In this document: in pieces, positions 45,188 to 60,122 of the stretch
Layout: every line of letters begins with the position of its first letter
Numbering within the stretch: position 1 is the stretch's first letter
NCBI RefSeq assembly: GCF_023585685.1
Contig: NZ_CP097764.1
Coordinates: 434,001 to 498,000, forward strand
DNA length: 64,000 nucleotides
Direction of reading: 5' to 3'
Source of the DNA: Blochmannia endosymbiont of Camponotus sp. C-003
GTDB taxonomy: Bacteria > Pseudomonadota > Gammaproteobacteria > Enterobacterales > Enterobacteriaceae
Made by a program: the position numbers and the translations under genes
Notes under the pieces: model-generated
What the model was told of the DNA's origin: nothing
Databases searched by the model: none
Seen by the model: the letters and a program-made list of their open reading frames with translations, nothing else

Positions 45188-47538
45188 ATGATTATTAATT
45201 TTTTTTTAAGAACATTATTATTAATTTAATTTTTTTAATATTTTATACTCAATTTTGTTTTTTGGCTTATGCATCTAATTGCGCACAAATTCCTATGATC
45301 AACAGTCTTTCTTCTATTGATCAAACTATCTGTGTATTATCCGACGAATTAAATATTTATTATCCTAATAAAATTAAGTTTTCTGGACATGTTAGAATAA
45401 AACAAGATCATAACATCTTCATGTCCGACAAACTAATAATATTACTTCAAGAAAAAAACGAATTATTGTACAATACAAAATTATATGCATATGGTCATAT
45501 TGAGTATAAAAACAGCTATGTTATATTAACTGGAATTCGTGCTTGGATTAATTTTTATAATAAAAATATAGATATTCATGAAGGCACATATCATGTCTTA
45601 AAGCCTCCTATTCATGGAACAGCAAATTCTATAATGCAGAGGGGGGAAGGCCGCTATACTATTGTTAAGAAAGGAAAGTGTACTTCTTGTATTTCAAATA
45701 AAAATTATTGGAACATAACAGGATCAAAAATTCTTTATGATCATAAAACACACAATATGGATATATGGAATGCTTGTCTTAAAATAAAAAAAATACCAAT
45801 ATTTTACAGCCCCTATTTATCATTATCTTTGCATCAAAACAATATCTTAGGACACTACATACCAAACATTAAATATAGCAATAAAAATGGATTGATCTTA
45901 AAAATACCTTGTCCTATTTTTTTTTCAAAACATTGTTCGGGAAGTATTTCCCCATGTTATACATCTCACTTAGGAACAAAATTAGCAACAGAAATATACT
46001 ATTCAGTTAATCCAGGAACTGGATTATTAATTTTAGATCTTATAGGAAATAATAAAATATATAATAAAAATTTTTCCAATAATTACCATAACAAATATTG
46101 GCAACTATATTGGAAACATAACGGCATTATGAACAAAAAATGGCATTTTCATTCTAATTATACCTCGGCTACAGGCTCCGATAATTACATTGAAAACTTT
46201 AATATACCAACATATACACATTCTAATAATAATCACATCAACCAAAAAATACTATGCAATTATAGTGATAAAAATTGGAGCGCTAATCTAGCTTATTTTG
46301 GTATCACAAATACTAATACCACGATGATTAAAAATCATTCCAATTATAACAAAGCATTGCAATTAGAATTGAACTCATATATTGATTGCATCAATAATCA
46401 ACCATTTAATTTAAAATTATTCAGTCAATTAACGCAATTTATACCTTCAAATTATCATTACCCAAAAACAATCAGAATACATACAGAACCAACTTTAGAT
46501 TTCTCAATAAATAATCATTATAGTTATTTTAACAGCGAAGCCAAATTAAGAATAACACATTATCGACAAAAAAATGTAAATCATTACAACAGAATACAAA
46601 ACCCAGATCATCATTTAAACAATATAGTTAACCGCATCATCCCACAATTTAAAATTAACGGAAAGATGATTTTCAAAGAAAAAACACATATTTCAAAAAA
46701 ATATAAACATTTCTTAGAACCAAAATTACAATATTTATATGTACCATATCGTTTTCAAGAAAATATCGGTATCTACGATACTGATATGATTCATATAAAT
46801 CATAATAATTTATTTCGTGACACTACATATAGTGGATTGGATCGTATTTTATCTGTCAATCAAATTACGGGAAATATAGCTATACGATGTTGTAAGAACA
46901 AAAACGAACTATTTTACGCGTCTATAGGTCAAATTTTTGATTTGAGACAACTGAATTTCAAACATATAAAAATATCTAAATGTACACAAAAAACTCCTAA
47001 TATCATGTTATTTTCAGGAATAAGTCATTGGAATATTAACGATTATTGGAATGTAAACACTGAAATGCAATATGATATGCAACATCGTGCATTATCATTT
47101 GGGACTATAATATTAGAATACCTAGGTAAAGACAATCAAGTTTTACAAACACATTACAGACATACCAACGAACAATATCTTGAAAAAATACTACCAAACA
47201 TTAAAGAATCAATATATCACAACACAATTGCTCAATTAGGAATACTTGCTTGTTATCCTTTAATTGATAATTGGAAAGTAAGTTGGGCACATTACCATAA
47301 CATAAAAACTAATCAACTCATTGATCAAACAATAGGAATACAGTATTATACACCATGTTGGGGAGTGAATATATCTTGTGAGCGAAAAATGATTGATTGG
47401 AGTAAAGAATTAAACCGCAGTATATATGATAACAAAATACGATTTGATATCAGAATATATAACTCTACGTCAAATTTTAAAACAAATCCATATAAGATGT
47501 TAAACATAGGGGTTTTTCCATATCAACACACATTTTAA
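45188..47538 (+). CDS. lptD: LPS-assembly protein LptD, N-terminus out of frame at a T9 run
   Basis: Outer-membrane beta-barrel that inserts lipopolysaccharide into the outer leaflet with LptE. From 45262 the frame reads LAYASNCAQIPM and continues for 758 codons to PYQHTF, matching E. coli LptD including ENRYTI-like GEGRYTIVKKGKCTSC, IPIFYSPYLSL, NRIIPQFKINGKM and LQYLYVPYRFQ. No ATG opens this frame. ATG 45188 reads MIINFFLRT and stops soon after; with one extra T in the nine-T run at 45199-45207 it reads MIINFFFKNIIINLIFLIF and on through TQFCFLAYA into the mature protein, an apparent signal peptide. So the gene is either one base short or rescued by slippage. Confidence 0.88.
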
Positions 47539-52573: not shown

Positions 52574-52705
52574 TAAGCACAACATTCAAGTTTATATTTA
52601 AAATTAATAATACTTTTAATAAAATCTATAATTACTAAAATACACAGAGTATAATTGTGTAATTAATATTAATGAATCAATGACAGCTTTAATGTATTAT
52701 TTTGG

Positions 52706-52725
52706 CATACATACATACATACATA
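52706..52725. repeat. Five CATA tetranucleotide repeats
   Basis: CATA repeated five times at the distal edge of the carB remnant. In a decayed region such a microsatellite is likely to be neutral. Confidence 0.75.
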
Positions 52726-52826
52726 CCCTGAATTGATACCACATGTTCTGTAGTATCAATAATTAATGACACAGCTGTAGCAAAACTTCCGTTTATTATA
52801 GTAATAACATAATAAACTCCATATTT
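52706..52826 (-). pseudogene. carB: 3' remnant of carB (carbamoyl-phosphate synthase large subunit)
   Basis: Read on the minus strand, the frame gives KYGVYYVITIINGSFATAV followed by SLIIDTTEHVVSIQGMY. This matches the last roughly 40 residues of E. coli CarB (YKVHYDTTLNGGFATAM and ATEKVISVQEMH). Nothing of the preceding thousand residues of CarB is here. It joins the carA remnant in the same frame, so a deletion fused the two. Identification is by recognisable residues, not by a computed alignment. Confidence 0.8.
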
Positions 52827-53390
52827 AATATTCCAAGTGCCCTGATTCCAAATATATCATTAAGAAATACTTACTTTATGAAAACAATCAAGATCAAATC
52901 TATTTAATAAACTAGGAAAATCATGAGTCTACGCAATGCTAAATTAATAAATATAGCGCCAAATATATTCATCACGAGTAACAATATAGCCGTGTTATAT
53001 GCCCTTTTTTCGTATTAAATGAGTCAATTGACGAGTATCTACTTCTCTAGCAATTCCAACAATATTTTATTGTATTAAACAATTTAAAAGAGTTAATGTA
53101 TAATGAAAATTACTAACAATTATTGCTAGGTCATGAATGATTAGCCCGCTTACTTGGATACAGAAGATTTATTATCAAATTTATTAGTCCCAATATTCCC
53201 AATATGAGGACAAGTCAATCTTACTATTTAGTATGCATATATAAGAAGGATCAGTAATTGTTTATTGATAGCCAGTTATTGATTGATGTGTGTTGAAGAA
53301 CACTATTTCCCCTATCGTTTCTCCTTCTGATCCTATTATTTAACCATAAAATCGATTACCATCTTCTAGTACCAACAACACTGATGTCAT
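52827..53390 (-). pseudogene. carA: 5' remnant of carA (carbamoyl-phosphate synthase small subunit)
   Basis: From ATG 53390 on the minus strand the reading is MTSVLLVLEDGNRFYG, stop, then GSEGETIGEIVF, ITGYQ, stop, TITDPSY; in another frame TCPHIGNIGTN; then GLIIHDLAIIVSNF and REVDTRQLTHLIRKKGI; and finally, after another shift, HDFPSLLNRFDL and YIWNQGTWNI. These follow E. coli CarA residues about 1-170 in order. There are several stops and frameshifts and the glutaminase domain is missing, so it is a clear pseudogene. It occupies the syntenic carAB place downstream of dapB. Confidence 0.88.
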
Positions 53391-53637: not shown

Positions 53638-54492
53638 TCATGATGTGTTCATTTCTAAAATATCGCTTACATCAAACAATCCGATTTTATCATGCCCTAT
53701 CCAAAGAGCAGCGCGCAATGCTCCATGAGCGAATATTAAACGATCCGATGCTTTATGCGTGATTTCTAAACATTCTCCTAGTCCTGCAAATAACACAGTA
53801 TGTTCTCCAACGACATTTCCAGCACGTATCGAATGAATTGGTATATCTTCACAAGCAGATGTTGGTGTGTACGACGTTGGAGCATCAAAATTAAAATCCA
53901 TAATTTTATTATTATTGGAACGAACGGATCGCAATGTATTTACAATAATGTTCTGCATTGTTAAAGCAGTACCAGATGGTATGTCACGTTTCTTGTTATG
54001 ATGAGTTTCAATAATATTGATATCTGAAGTACTACCTATGATTTGAGTAATCCTATGTAACAGTTTAAATATTAACGCTACACCTATACTAAAATTAGAG
54101 GAAAAAACAATTCCTATTTTATGGGATGCATTTAAAATAAGATTCTTATGTATCTTATTAAATCCAGTAGTTCCAATAACTATATTTTTATTGTTATTAA
54201 CGCAAAATTTTAAGTATTCTACAGATACATCAGGGGCAGTGAAATCAATTAAAACATCAAAATTATCTTTAATTGATTCTAAATTATCAGTAATTGTCAC
54301 ACCTAAAGTATCAGCGTTTATTAATGTTCCAACATCCATTCCACAAATATTAGTATTTAAACGTGCTATGGCAGCTCCTAAAACAATCTCTTGACTAAAT
54401 TGTTTTTCTCCTTTAACAATACATTTTACTATTTCTTTGCCCATTCGACCAGTTACTCCTGTCACGGCAATACGAAGAAATGTACCGCTCAT
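53638..54492 (-). CDS. dapB: 4-hydroxy-tetrahydrodipicolinate reductase
   Basis: Step of the diaminopimelate/lysine pathway; it supplies MurE with meso-DAP precursor. The nucleotide motif is VTGVTGRMGKEIV, then VLIDFTAPD, VIGTTGF, SSNFSIGV and the active-site ETHHNKKRDIPSGTAL with the catalytic histidine and lysine. RAGNVVGEHTVLFAG follows. The 284 residues compare with 273; a few extra residues lie at the C-terminus and N-terminus. In E. coli dapB precedes carAB, as it does the remnant here. Confidence 0.96.
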   Translation of the reverse strand: MSGTFLRIAVTGVTGRMGKEIVKCIVKGEKQFSQEIVLGAAIARLNTNICGMDVGTLINADTLGVTITDNLESIKDNFDVLIDFTAPDVSVEYLKFCVNNNKNIVIGTTGFNKIHKNLILNASHKIGIVFSSNFSIGVALIFKLLHRITQIIGSTSDINIIETHHNKKRDIPSGTALTMQNIIVNTLRSVRSNNNKIMDFNFDAPTSYTPTSACEDIPIHSIRAGNVVGEHTVLFAGLGECLEITHKASDRLIFAHGALRAALWIGHDKIGLFDVSDILEMNTS

Positions 54493-54750: not shown

Positions 54751-55686
54751 CTAAATTTTAGGTATATCAAAAAATATGTTTTCTTCCTGTCCGACCATTT
54801 CTTCAACAACAACATGATCTGGACTTAACAGACGTAATTTTTCAATAACTTGGAGTACTAAAATATCTGGAGCTGATGCCCCAGCAGTAATACCAATGTT
54901 ATTTATTCCATATAACCAATTTCTTTGAATATCATTAGCATGACCAATTAAATATGCACTCTTTCCAATACGACGTGCTAGCTCCATTAATCTTACAGAA
55001 TTAGATGATGCCATTGATCCCACAACAAATATCATCTCTACCGCCAGAGCTAAATTTTTAAGAGCATTTTGTCTATTAAATGTAGCGTAACAAATATCAT
55101 TTTTTCTAGGACCTAGAATATTAGGAAATCTTCTATTCAAAATTGCTATAATTTCTGCGGCATCATCTATCGACAAAGTTGTTTGTGTTACGAAAAATAA
55201 ATGATTTGGATGATTAACTTGCACTGACCAGGCATCTGATTGAGATTCAACCAAATATATTTTTTGTTCAGAATTTATAGGAACATATTGCCCCATAGTT
55301 CCCTCTACTTCTGGATGACCAGAATGACCTATTAATATTACTTCCATATTATTACGATTCGCTAGAGCAACTTCTTTATGTACTTTAGTTACCAATGGAC
55401 AAGTAGCATCAATTACTATTAAATTTTTAATTTTTGCCTGTTCTCGTATCCTTTTTGATACTCCATGAGCAGAAAAAACTAAAACCGATCCATTCGGCAC
55501 CTCATCTAGTTGCTCAACAAAAATAACACCTTTATTAGATAATTGAGCGACTACGTAACTGTTATGCACTAACTCATGTCGCACATAAATTGGCGTGCCA
55601 TATGTTTGTATAGATTTATCTACAATATTGATTGCTCGATTGACCCCTGCGCAGAACCCACGCGGGTTAGCTAATACAACTTTAAT
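54751..55686 (-). CDS. ispH: 4-hydroxy-3-methylbut-2-enyl diphosphate reductase, apparent ATT start
   Basis: Last step of the MEP isoprenoid pathway, an iron-sulfur enzyme. The first ordinary start codon is GTG 55584, but the frame continues upstream as [21 protein letters not shown], which matches the E. coli N-terminus and supplies C12, one of three cluster cysteines. It is bounded by TAA at 55692-55690, followed by ATA and ATT. ATT at 55686 stands exactly where the initiator Met is expected, with AGAGG eight bases upstream. That gives 311 residues against 316. Other motifs: [35 protein letters not shown] and TAGASAPD. fkpB, usually between lspA and ispH, is missing. Confidence 0.92.
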
Positions 55687-55835: not shown

Positions 55836-56322
55836 TTATTTTTTAAAAAAATCATAATAGAATCTTCCTGTTAAGATGGTAATTCCTACACAAATTGCTA
55901 TATCTGCAACATTAAAAGTTGGCCAATGCCAACTTTTAATGTGCAGATCAATAAAATCAACTACTGCTCCGTATAGTATTCGATCAAATAAATTTCCTAA
56001 AGCTCCCCCAATAATCATAGAGTAAGATATCCTATAACACCTAGAACGATCAATCAATTTATACAAGGCCACAATAAACGCTACGATCACTAATATTGTT
56101 ATCCAAACAAATATCCCATGATAATATAAATGAGAATCGGCAAATAATCCAAAAGCTAATCCTGTATTACAAATATAATAACAATTAATGCCGGGCAATA
56201 CTGATAACACCTCCCCAATACAAATGAGTCTTTACCCAATATTTTGTTCCTATGTTTAAAAACATTAACAACATAGATAACCATAACCATTTTAAATTTT
56301 TATAATTATATTTTTTATGCAT
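55836..56322 (-). pseudogene. lspA: Lipoprotein signal peptidase, frameshifted
   Basis: LspA cleaves prolipoprotein signal peptides in the inner membrane. The ATG at 56322 overlaps the ileS stop (TAATG). The first frame reads HKKYNYKNLKWLWLSMLLM... KTHLYW and then stops at 56185. The remaining protein continues in another frame from about 56214 as EVLSVLPGINCYYICNTGL to the end at 55836, with GGALGNLFDR and FNVADIAICVG holding both catalytic aspartates. Removing one G from the GGGG run (CCCC at 56213-56216) joins them into a complete LspA of about 160 residues. LspA is normally essential, so this may be a very recent lesion, a sequencing error, or a rescued frame. Confidence 0.85.
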
Positions 56323-59152
56323 TAAAAAAACCTACGCTTTTCTCCTGAGCCAACTATGTTAGTAATACAACGAGAGCAAATATTTGAATAATTTTTATAT
56401 TGATCAATGATATCTAATCTATAATGCCAGCAACGCTGACACTTTTTACCTTGAGCTTTTTCTAAAAAGATTTTCAACCCAGGTATTCCTTTTTGTTCAC
56501 ATTGAGTTACATTAAATTTATTGTAATAATCTAAAACTACAGCTGATGACGTTATTAATCTAAAAGAAAGTTCATGACCCAAGATACGTAATATATTTGC
56601 CAGTTCTGGAGTAGCATATAAAACTACACTGGCGTCTAAAGATCCCCCGATAATACCAGTAAGACGCATTTGTTCAACTATTTTACTTACTTCACTTCTG
56701 ACATTTAAAAAAGTATTCCAATTATCACTATTCATAATTTGTTTTGAACTTATACTAAATAAGCCATCATACCATTCTTCAGTAAATACATATTTTGATC
56801 TATTTCCTGGAATATATCTCCAAATTTCATCAGCAGTAAAAGATAAAATTGGAGCAATCCAACGCACCATAGATTCAATAATATGATACAATGCAGTTTG
56901 GCAGCTACGACGTTCTTTACTATTTTTTTTCATAGTATATTGTCGATCTTTAATAACATCCAAATAAAACGAACCCATTTCTATTGAACAAAACTGCATA
57001 ATTCGTTGTATTACATTATGAAAATTATATTTGTTATAATGCGATATTACTTCTAACTGTACAGATAATGCTCGATCTACTACCCAACAATCTAATTCAA
57101 TCATATTTTCTGGATGTACACAATCTTGTTCTGGATTAAAATCACCAATATTAGCTAAACAAAATCGGGCAGTATTCCGAATACGCCGATACACATCGGT
57201 CGTATGTTTCAAAATAGAATTTGAAATTGTCATTTCTTTAGAATAATCAGAAGAGGCTATCCACAATCGTAATATATCTGCTCCGAAATCTTTTATTATT
57301 TCCTGAGGGCTAATGACATTACCAAGAGATTTAGACATCTTACGTCCCTGAGCATCTACAGTAAATCCATGAGTCAATACTTCTTTATACGGTGCTTTAC
57401 CTGTAATTGCGGTTGATATAATTAAAGACGACATAAACCAACCACGGTATTGATCTGAACCCTCTAAATATAAATCTGGTGACTTATTATGGTATTCTAA
57501 TCTCTCTGGTATTACCGAATAATGAGTAGAACCAGAATCAAACCATACATCAAGTATATCTAACACTTTTTCATATTGATCTATTTCTTCATTTCCTATG
57601 AGATCTTCAGTTTTTAAATCCCACCACGCCTGTATTCCACGTTGTTCTACATGTTGAGCGATTACTTCCATTAACTCAATCGTACGAGGATGTAAGATAT
57701 CGGTTGTTTTGTGAATGAAAAGAGGTATGGGTACACCCCAAACGCGTTGCCTTGAAAGGCACCAATCCGGTCTATTAACAATCATTGTTTCAATGCTAGA
57801 TTCTCCCTTATTTGGAATCCAACGTACTTTATGTATTGTTTCCAATAATTTATTTCTTAAATTATATTTATCCATACTTAAAAACCACTGCGTAGTAGCT
57901 TTAAAAATGACAGGAATTGCATGCCGCCAACAATATGGATAACTATGTTTATAATTGTAATTCACATGTAACAAAGAACCTGATTGACTTAATAAATTTA
58001 TTATTATGTCATTTGCTTGAAATACTTGTACTCCATCTAACATAGGGTGCACATTAGATACATAACGGCTTGTATCATTTATTATACTAATAATTTTAAG
58101 ATTATATTTTCGAGCCACAATATAATCATCAACGCCATGATTTGGAGCTATGTGTACTACTCCTGTTCCAGAATCTAATGTGACATGATTACTTAAAACA
58201 ACAGGGATATCAAACGGCATGAACGGATGATGAAATTTTAACGATTCTAAAGAATTACCTGATGTTTCTACTAAAATCTCCCAAGAAAAACATTGTATGC
58301 GTTGCATTACAACATCCACTAAATTAGCCGCAACAATTATATATTTATGATTATTCACTGCAATCAATTGGTAATTGTAGTCTGGATGTACAGAAATAGC
58401 CTGATTGGAAGGTAATGTCCAAGGAGTAGTAGTCCAAATCACTAATTCAACGCTATGTTGACATAATTCAACATTGAATATTTTAGAAATACGCATACTA
58501 TTTACTGCAGCAAAAGCAACATCAATAGCAGGAGAAAAATGGTTATTATATTCCACTTCCGATTCGGCTAGTACAGAGCAACATTGAAAACACCAATGTA
58601 CAGGTTTTGTTCCTTTATAAAAGTAACCTTTAGATATAACCTTACTTAAAGTACGAATAATATTTGCTTCTGTCTTAAAATCCATTGTCAAATAAGGTCG
58701 TGACCAATCTCCTAAGACACCTAACCTTACGAAATCTTTTTTTGTATTTCTATTTGATCTAAAACATAATTACGGCAGATACTTCGAAATTTATTTGGAT
58801 CAACACTAATTCCTGGTTGCCCTATTAACCGTTCTACTTGTAGTTCGATAGGCAATCCATGACAATCCCAACCGGAGATATAGGGGGCATTATACCCCAT
58901 TAAGTTTTTATATTTTAGAATAATATCTTTAAGTACTTTATTTACTGCATGACCTAAATGAATCCTACCGTTCACATAAGGTGGGCCATCATGTAATACA
59001 AATAATTTTTTTTTGATTTTTTTAAGACGAATTGCTTCGTATAAATTATCTTTATACCAACGTTTTAAGACAATAGGCTCACATACAGGTAAATTAGCAC
59101 GCATTGGAAATAATGTATGTGGTAAATTCAAAGTATTTTTATAGTTAATCAT
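56322..59152 (-). CDS. ileS: Isoleucyl-tRNA synthetase, frameshift at an A7 run
   Basis: Charges tRNA-Ile; essential. The first frame (59152-58727) gives INYKNTLNLPHTLFPMR... with HDGPPYVNGRIHLGH (the HIGH motif) and ends QIEIQKKIS-stop. The rest follows in the next frame: DFVRLGVLGDWSRPYLTMDF onward to GEKRRFF, with VIWTTTPWTLPSN, the editing domain, WGVPIPLF, GRKMSKSLGN (KMSKS) and the C-terminal zinc cysteines CQRCW and CSRC. One extra A in the seven-A run (T7 at 58737-58743) restores a single protein of about 943 residues (938 in E. coli). All domains remain conserved on both sides, which argues that the product is made. Confidence 0.93.
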
Positions 59153-59159
59153 TTATAAA

Positions 59160-60122
59160 TTATTCCGTTTTATAAACTTTATTTATATTATTAATTTTAT
59201 TAAAGTAACTACGTACTTTTATTATATCGTTTTTAATTTGATGCTGTAATGTTTTCACGGAACTGAAATATTGTTCATCGCGTATTTTAGACAAAAAAAC
59301 CACTTTAACATGATAAGTATATAGATTTGTAGATATATTTAATAAGTGTACTTCTAATTTTTGTTGATTTTTTCCAGTAATTGTCGGACAAATTCCCACA
59401 TTAGCTATACCCGGTAATGGTACGTTAGAAATACCATATACCTCTACTGCATATACACCATGTACGGGTAATCGTTTACCTTGTAATGATATGTTAGCCG
59501 TAGGAAACCCAATTCTACGGCCTAATTCATTTCCGCGAACTACACGACCAGAAATACAATAAGAATGTCCCAGTAATAATTCAGCATCCAACATTCTATT
59601 TTCCACTAAAGCGACACGTATCGCAGTACTACTTATTCTTTGATTGTTTTCATCAAGATAAGTGGCGACACGTATTACTTCAAAACCTTCATTTTTACCC
59701 ATTTTTTGCAATAAAATAAAATCCCCTTTTCTAAAAGCACCGAATCTAAAATCATCCCCGATATAAATAAACCGTACGTCTAATTTAGATATTAATATAT
59801 TTTTAATAAAATTATATGCTTCAATAGCAGCAAATTTTTTATTAAAAGTAATACACAAAATGACATCTACTCCTGCTACACATAAATAATTAACTTTATC
59901 TCTTAATCTAGTTAATCGCATTGCTATTATATTAGATAGATACTCGTTAGGTTGTGGTTCAAAGATCATGACCACAACAGGTAATTTCAAAGTGTTTCTT
60001 TTTTTTTGTAACTTTTCGAGCAATGCCTGATGCCCACGATGAAATCCATCAAAATTACCAATAGTAAGTATACAACCTTTATGATGGGGTTTTATATTAT
60101 GTAATCCTCTAACAAATTCCAT
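59160..60122 (-). CDS. ribF: Bifunctional riboflavin kinase / FAD synthetase
   Basis: Makes FMN and then FAD from riboflavin. The N-terminal nucleotidyltransferase domain has LTIGNFDGFHRGHQALLE and IGDDFRFGAFRKGD and SSTAIRVAL. The C-terminal flavokinase domain begins SGRVVRGNELGRRIGFPTANI and contains HGVYAVEVYG. The 320 residues compare with 313. It is first in the ribF-ileS-lspA-ispH-dapB direction and is divergent from rpsT, as in E. coli. The flavin enzymes CysJ and Lpd in this window depend on it. Confidence 0.97.
   Translation of the reverse strand: MEFVRGLHNIKPHHKGCILTIGNFDGFHRGHQALLEKLQKKRNTLKLPVVVMIFEPQPNEYLSNIIAMRLTRLRDKVNYLCVAGVDVILCITFNKKFAAIEAYNFIKNILISKLDVRFIYIGDDFRFGAFRKGDFILLQKMGKNEGFEVIRVATYLDENNQRISSTAIRVALVENRMLDAELLLGHSYCISGRVVRGNELGRRIGFPTANISLQGKRLPVHGVYAVEVYGISNVPLPGIANVGICPTITGKNQQKLEVHLLNISTNLYTYHVKVVFLSKIRDEQYFSSVKTLQHQIKNDIIKVRSYFNKINNINKVYKTE

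Follow-up and report, generated by a model that had tools for sequence, protein, structure and literature searches.

The DNA analysed here (the window) is a stretch of 64,000 nucleotides from the genome of the Blochmannia endosymbiont of Camponotus sp. C-003, which is assembled as one contig, 783,921 bp in length, and is called G000 where a label is needed. On the minus strand of the window the gene order is ribF, ileS, lspA, ispH, dapB, remnants of carA and carB, and a dihydrofolate reductase gene. The ileS gene, for isoleucyl-tRNA synthetase (IleRS), comprises a 141-aa open frame (59152-58727) and a 789-aa one (58691-56322). It is split by the lack of a single base in an A7 run at 58743-58737 (minus strand). 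The features of the locus are given below; N/S is the ratio of amino-acid-changing (N) to silent (S) differences.

59160..60122, minus strand: ribF, intact, the upstream neighbour of ileS
58727..59152, minus strand: 5' open frame of ileS, 141 aa, with an HLGH (HIGH) motif at residue 65 and a TAA two codons past the A-run
58737..58743, minus strand: A7 run, at which 13 of 13 relatives keep the frame
58736..58742, minus strand: A_AAA_AAG heptamer, in frame with the upstream part of ileS, where a -1 shift leads to GAT TTC GTA (DFV); frame counted by hand
58692..58736, minus strand: conserved stretch DFVRLGVLGDWSRPY, outside both ileS open frames
56322..58691, minus strand: 3' open frame of ileS, 789 aa, with KMSKS and the C-terminal CxxC pairs
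55839..56322, minus strand: lspA (signal peptidase II), decaying, with a private 2-base deletion at ~56200 and N/S of 1.70
54754-55584, minus strand: ispH, an open gene that, with dapB, separates lspA from the carA remnant
53641-54492, minus strand: dapB, likewise open and in the same interval
52692..53390, minus strand: what is left of carA (about half; 50% identity; 5 stops among the codons compared) and of carB (no more than its final 41 residues)

The minus strand at the break reads GAAATACAAAAAAAGATTTCGTAAGG, whose A7 corresponds on the plus strand to T7 at 58737-58743. The upstream frame runs through CAA AAA AAG ATT TCG TAA and ends the protein at QIEIQKKIS-stop, whereas the corresponding sequence in the four nearest relatives is QIE(I/M)QKKDFVRLGVLGD, with codons CAA AAA AAR GAT TTY GTA. 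No second break was found within the 942 codons of ileS. Against the TIGR00392 ileS profile the 789-aa part alone scored 724.5 bits (cut-off 621.4), which places it among the IleRS proteins, and the 141-aa part scored 148.9 bits over model positions 2-130. Both catalytic motifs, HLGH and KMSKS, are present but on separate frames. The stretch between the frames is conserved beyond chance: across the best 120 IleRS proteins listed, the commonest residue had a mean frequency of 0.89 in this stretch versus 0.80 in the whole of IleRS. A preliminary description of this DNA had reported the split with its coordinates, a restored length of about 943 residues and conservation of both parts; all three hold, the closest relatives having 942 residues.

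No second ileS was found in the genome. The other matches (23-36% identity) lie in other large open frames and are probably related class I synthetases. A tRNA-Ile(GAT) is present. One synthetase-like match, at G000:C1:261259-261561, has an internal TAA in the matched stretch.

All 13 other Blochmannia genomes searched have ileS as a single open frame (940-965 aa), and the split is private to one of the 14 species genomes, with no sharing of the frameshift between species. At the site of the break the run is A8 in eight of the 13 relatives, A7GG in two, CAAAAGAAA in two and CAAAAAAGAG in one. In the ileS tree G000 is sister to G010, G001, G008 and G004 (bootstrap 100). Because A8, the commonest state overall, is found in three of these four sister genomes, the most parsimonious account is that an ancestral A8 lost one A. 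A possible alternative with the same resulting letters is that a G was lost from A7GG, the form present in G001. In a database protein search, no independent copy of this ileS, intact or split, was close among the matches listed: the closest relative listed was 88% identical to the 789-aa query (best 120 of 8000 candidates scored) and 62% identical to the 141-aa query. The lack of a close copy among these matches decides nothing. For LptD (window 45262-47538) the same database contains a relative at 98% identity, P0121, that comes from a different assembly, and other sequence data for this lineage or a very close one therefore exist.

The two-base deletion in lspA is not within any long run. 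Matches to lspA in G011 and G012 also hold an internal stop. The lspA sequences suggest that this gene may have decayed repeatedly. carB scored above the family cut-off in 13 of the 14 genomes, G000 being the sole exception, and the loss of carA and carB is confined to G000 among the 14. Such a loss should affect arginine and pyrimidine synthesis. Since lspA, carA and carB are truly decaying, the operon stretch around ileS is eroding, a point that is absent from the preliminary description.

For N/S counts, codons at which four relatives agree were used, and differences on the G000 side were scored as amino-acid-changing or silent. The four relatives in these first counts came from one clade and were used without an outgroup, so that the clade stem is included. 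N/S for ileS was 54/84 = 0.64, against 889/1402 = 0.63 for 40 intact window genes (ileS rank 20 of 40; Fisher P 0.93) and a range of 1.7-3.5 for the decaying neighbours (lspA 17/10, carA 43/17, carB 7/2). Residues 1-139 held 7 N and 8 S, and residues 140-942 held 47 N and 76 S; purifying selection is seen on both sides of the break, although the 5' part on its own is too small to carry weight. With G007, G011 or G013 as outgroup, ileS had a tip N/S of 19/52, 17/47 or 20/49, with zero stops; the polarised counts are for ileS, and the intact and decaying comparison genes were counted unpolarised. A neutral N/S of 50/19 was taken from the carA and carB remnants. With a neutral share of at least 15% of the tip, P was at most 0.022 in all six variants, and with a 10% share P was 0.005 to 0.09. 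Selection has therefore acted on ileS for nearly the whole branch, which means that the break is recent or that the enzyme continues to be produced. With one break and N/S as in intact genes, ileS has neither the several disruptions nor the relaxed constraint of a pseudogene; it has a single indel in an A-run and is otherwise open. The earlier claim that ileS is free of decay agrees with these counts. For the window as a whole, N/S was 0.67 in G000 versus 0.38-0.54 in the four relatives, indicating weaker constraint on the whole lineage.

Breaks elsewhere were surveyed in 264 kb of G000 (34% of the genome) against 223 reference ORFs of at least 80 aa from G004. For 208 of the 223, a single unbroken match covered at least 92% of the length; 5 had no match and 10 were partial. 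Of the partial ORFs, 2 were at stretch ends, 1 overlaps 5S rRNA, 1 differs at its start (a gene which we take to be lptC-like), 2 were short and without a family match, which we take to be spurious, and 4 were ileS, lspA, carA and carB. Because the 92% limit misses breaks at gene ends, 9 ends of at least 8 residues were checked, and 5 of them were flagged and inspected; these had small indels, located at the start of one gene (infB-like) and at the ends of two more, and no central one-base break. In the 264 kb, ileS is the only gene that is broken by one base in its middle and conserved on either side. The infB-like gene (G000:C1 ~513477-513560) has two one-base deletions at its start relative to G004, and has therefore lost its first 25 residues or moved its start. 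Within open conserved genes of the 264 kb (open frames only), 115 sense A-runs of at least eight were counted; that these long coding runs are intact argues against a generally poor assembly, with one wrong base still possible. Outside both the window and the 264-kb sample, dnaX (G000:C1 ~278 kb) is one base short, with A9 against the ten bases AAAGAAAAAA of its relatives, and its conserved end EFSSDPYVKMIKSFFDAEIDENDIQVL, the last 31 conserved residues, continues in another frame. Open frames of dnaX are also short in G002 (542), G012 (559) and G005 (410) versus 664-727 in the others.

Two routes to a full-length product were considered. RNA polymerase slippage, proposed in the preliminary description as restoring the frame in a fraction of transcripts, is possible but weaker than stated there. 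In an E. coli reporter, no slippage was detectable on runs of fewer than seven Ts or fewer than eight As (PMC6260861), and A7 falls below this eight-A threshold, which is that of E. coli and may not be that of the Blochmannia enzyme. One A7 in E. coli gave 0.39% insertion by sequencing (PMC6260861). In Buchnera the insertion rate is reported to rise exponentially with run length, with no case of a frame restored by transcription error (PMC5574713). The visC tract of Blochmannia has a length of 11, tracts of at least 9 were counted as long, and 30% full-length transcripts are cited for other frameshifted genes (PMC3017870).

The other route, overlooked in the preliminary description, is ribosomal. 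The break site CAA_AAA_AAG contains a zero-frame A_AAA_AAG of the dnaX type, a class of -1 frameshift site (PMC5009743), in the right register for a -1 shift. A shift there gives the conserved QKKDFVR, the same protein as an extra A added by the polymerase. No upstream Shine-Dalgarno was visible in the sequence near the heptamer, and no downstream fold stood out beyond shuffles (z -0.53, -1.53 and -0.09 at three lengths). UUU is not the sole lysine tRNA of G000, which also has tRNA-Lys(CUU) (G000:C1:139162-139237); gene calling gave a CUU gene in each of the 14 Blochmannia genomes. A second lysine tRNA has been linked to poor shifting in Thermus (review; PMC5009743). In 199 open conserved genes (264 kb), zero-frame A_AAA_AAG was observed 22 times versus 12.9 expected; since it is not avoided elsewhere, the heptamer at ileS is non-specific. 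In the same 199 genes A_AAA_AAA was observed 170 times versus 95.9 expected, in-frame lysine runs exceeding codon independence. In E. coli, heptamers that lack a stimulator shift at no more than ten times a background of 0.055% (PMC4066793), a maximum of about half a per cent by our own arithmetic from these values. The ribosomal route has the required sequence form, with no sign of selection for it. On E. coli numbers, polymerase and ribosome combined would give about 1%.

We tentatively prefer, at somewhat short of an even chance, a real and recent deletion in ileS that is tolerated through low-level slippage. On this reading a real one-base deletion, recent relative to the length of the branch, would have cut an ancestral A8 in the lineage's ileS to A7. 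IleRS would still be needed by the cell, and a minority of full-length enzyme would be made by slippage, the RNA polymerase adding an A, the ribosome shifting -1 on A_AAA_AAG, or both. The one-base difference, the parsimonious direction of change, the intact second half, the purifying selection and the in-frame heptamer are seen in the sequences themselves; that the DNA truly carries A7, and that slippage yields enough enzyme, we infer. The lack of another ileS, the presence of tRNA-Ile(GAT), the one-base shortfall of dnaX in G000 and the dnaX, dnaG and pth frameshifts listed for other Blochmannia (PMC3017870) also count in favour of this reading. Against it, the split is private to 1 of 14 genomes, and about 1% of the normal enzyme may be insufficient for growth. 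A further claim, that an essential synthetase is made only via leaky decoding of an unassisted A7/A_AAA_AAG, with polymerase and ribosome slippage adding up at a site below the presumed length need, is possible but doubtful. If it were true, expression in the symbiont would be far less accurate than in E. coli, or very little IleRS would be needed.

A sequencing or assembly error, with the frame intact in the DNA and one base of the run dropped from the record, seems somewhat unlikely but is a serious rival, and the preliminary description was right to ask that an assembly fault be considered. An error would account for an essential enzyme free of decay whose split is private to one assembly, and an A-run of dnaX in that same assembly is likewise one base off; in its favour, too, no second ileS copy of the lineage was among the listed matches (best 88% and 62%), despite the 98% LptD relative. 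Random miscalls in runs, however, predict more breaks than were accepted in the 264 kb, where only ileS, lspA, carA and carB are broken and the 115 sense A-runs of at least eight sit in open conserved genes. The loss may instead be real but unfixed or very recent, either with the broken copy unfixed in the species or with broken and intact copies coexisting, and rescue would then be unneeded. The constraint on ileS permits only a short neutral period, as this reading expects, and the weaker constraint across the lineage (window N/S 0.67 versus 0.38-0.54) is in keeping with it. Because one Nardonella genome has an intact ileS and another a frameshifted one (PMC8248872), population variation is a serious possibility; but a broken essential gene should vanish fast unless intact copies persist, and we judge an unfixed or very recent loss unlikely overall.

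Two further explanations carry little weight with us. In the first, a very improbable one, a functional IleRS would be put together from two polypeptides, of which the second has its start inside the gene. HIGH and KMSKS do lie on separate open frames, and the E. coli IleRS can work in fragments, although a literature search found no paper on this. The first starts of the second frame (TTG 58691 and ATG 58685) are, however, 16 and 23 bases past the nearest AGGAG, and the product would be without DFVRLGVLGDWSRPY, conserved at 0.89 on average. It is scarcely credible that ileS is dead and its product replaced from outside: lspA and carAB are decaying alongside, but the N/S of ileS matches that of intact genes, there is no second break, and we know of no route for importing the enzyme.

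If the deletion and its rescue by slippage are real, the locus measures how little of an essential enzyme suffices for a symbiont, and separates polymerase from ribosome rescue at a run shorter than the published threshold. If the break is an error or an unfixed variant, counts of symbiont frameshifts need reads behind them. ileS and dnaX make a small testable pair, with A7 and A9 in one cell.

For a frameshift of ileS in print, the literature search turned up, among the papers listed, only the note on Candidatus Nardonella, a weevil symbiont. One of its genomes has a complete ileS and the other carries a one-base frameshift in the gene, which the authors interpret as variation between host populations (PMC8248872). 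The likeness is close: the same essential gene, a one-base frameshift, an insect endosymbiont, and an intact gene in another genome of the same symbiont. The frameshift there is at position 820, whereas that in G000 comes after about base 416; the variation there is between populations and here only between species, and the passage on Nardonella does not mention rescue (PMC8248872). With the E. coli dnaX site, the ileS break shares a zero-frame A_AAA_AAG and the -1 direction (PMC5009743), but no stimulators were found, a second lysine tRNA is present, and the shift would repair a break rather than add a product. In the dnaX genes of Blochmannia themselves, zero-frame A_AAA_AAG was present in only 2 of 14 genomes by our own count. 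Genes of Blochmannia and Buchnera frameshifted in poly(A) tracts have been taken as rescued by transcriptional slippage (PMC3017870, PMC4389277), with 4-8 such genes per genome (Table 1 of PMC4389277). Frameshifts in dnaX, dnaG and pth are listed for other Blochmannia, that in dnaX occurring in two (PMC3017870). ileS has 0 occurrences in the main text of either paper. The G000 gene resembles this group in its single indel in an A-run, its otherwise open frame, its AT-rich symbiont genome and its genus, and differs in having only A7 and in being private to 1 of 14 genomes. The ileS case joins the known poly(A) frameshift genes as one in which the gene is unusually essential and the run unusually short.
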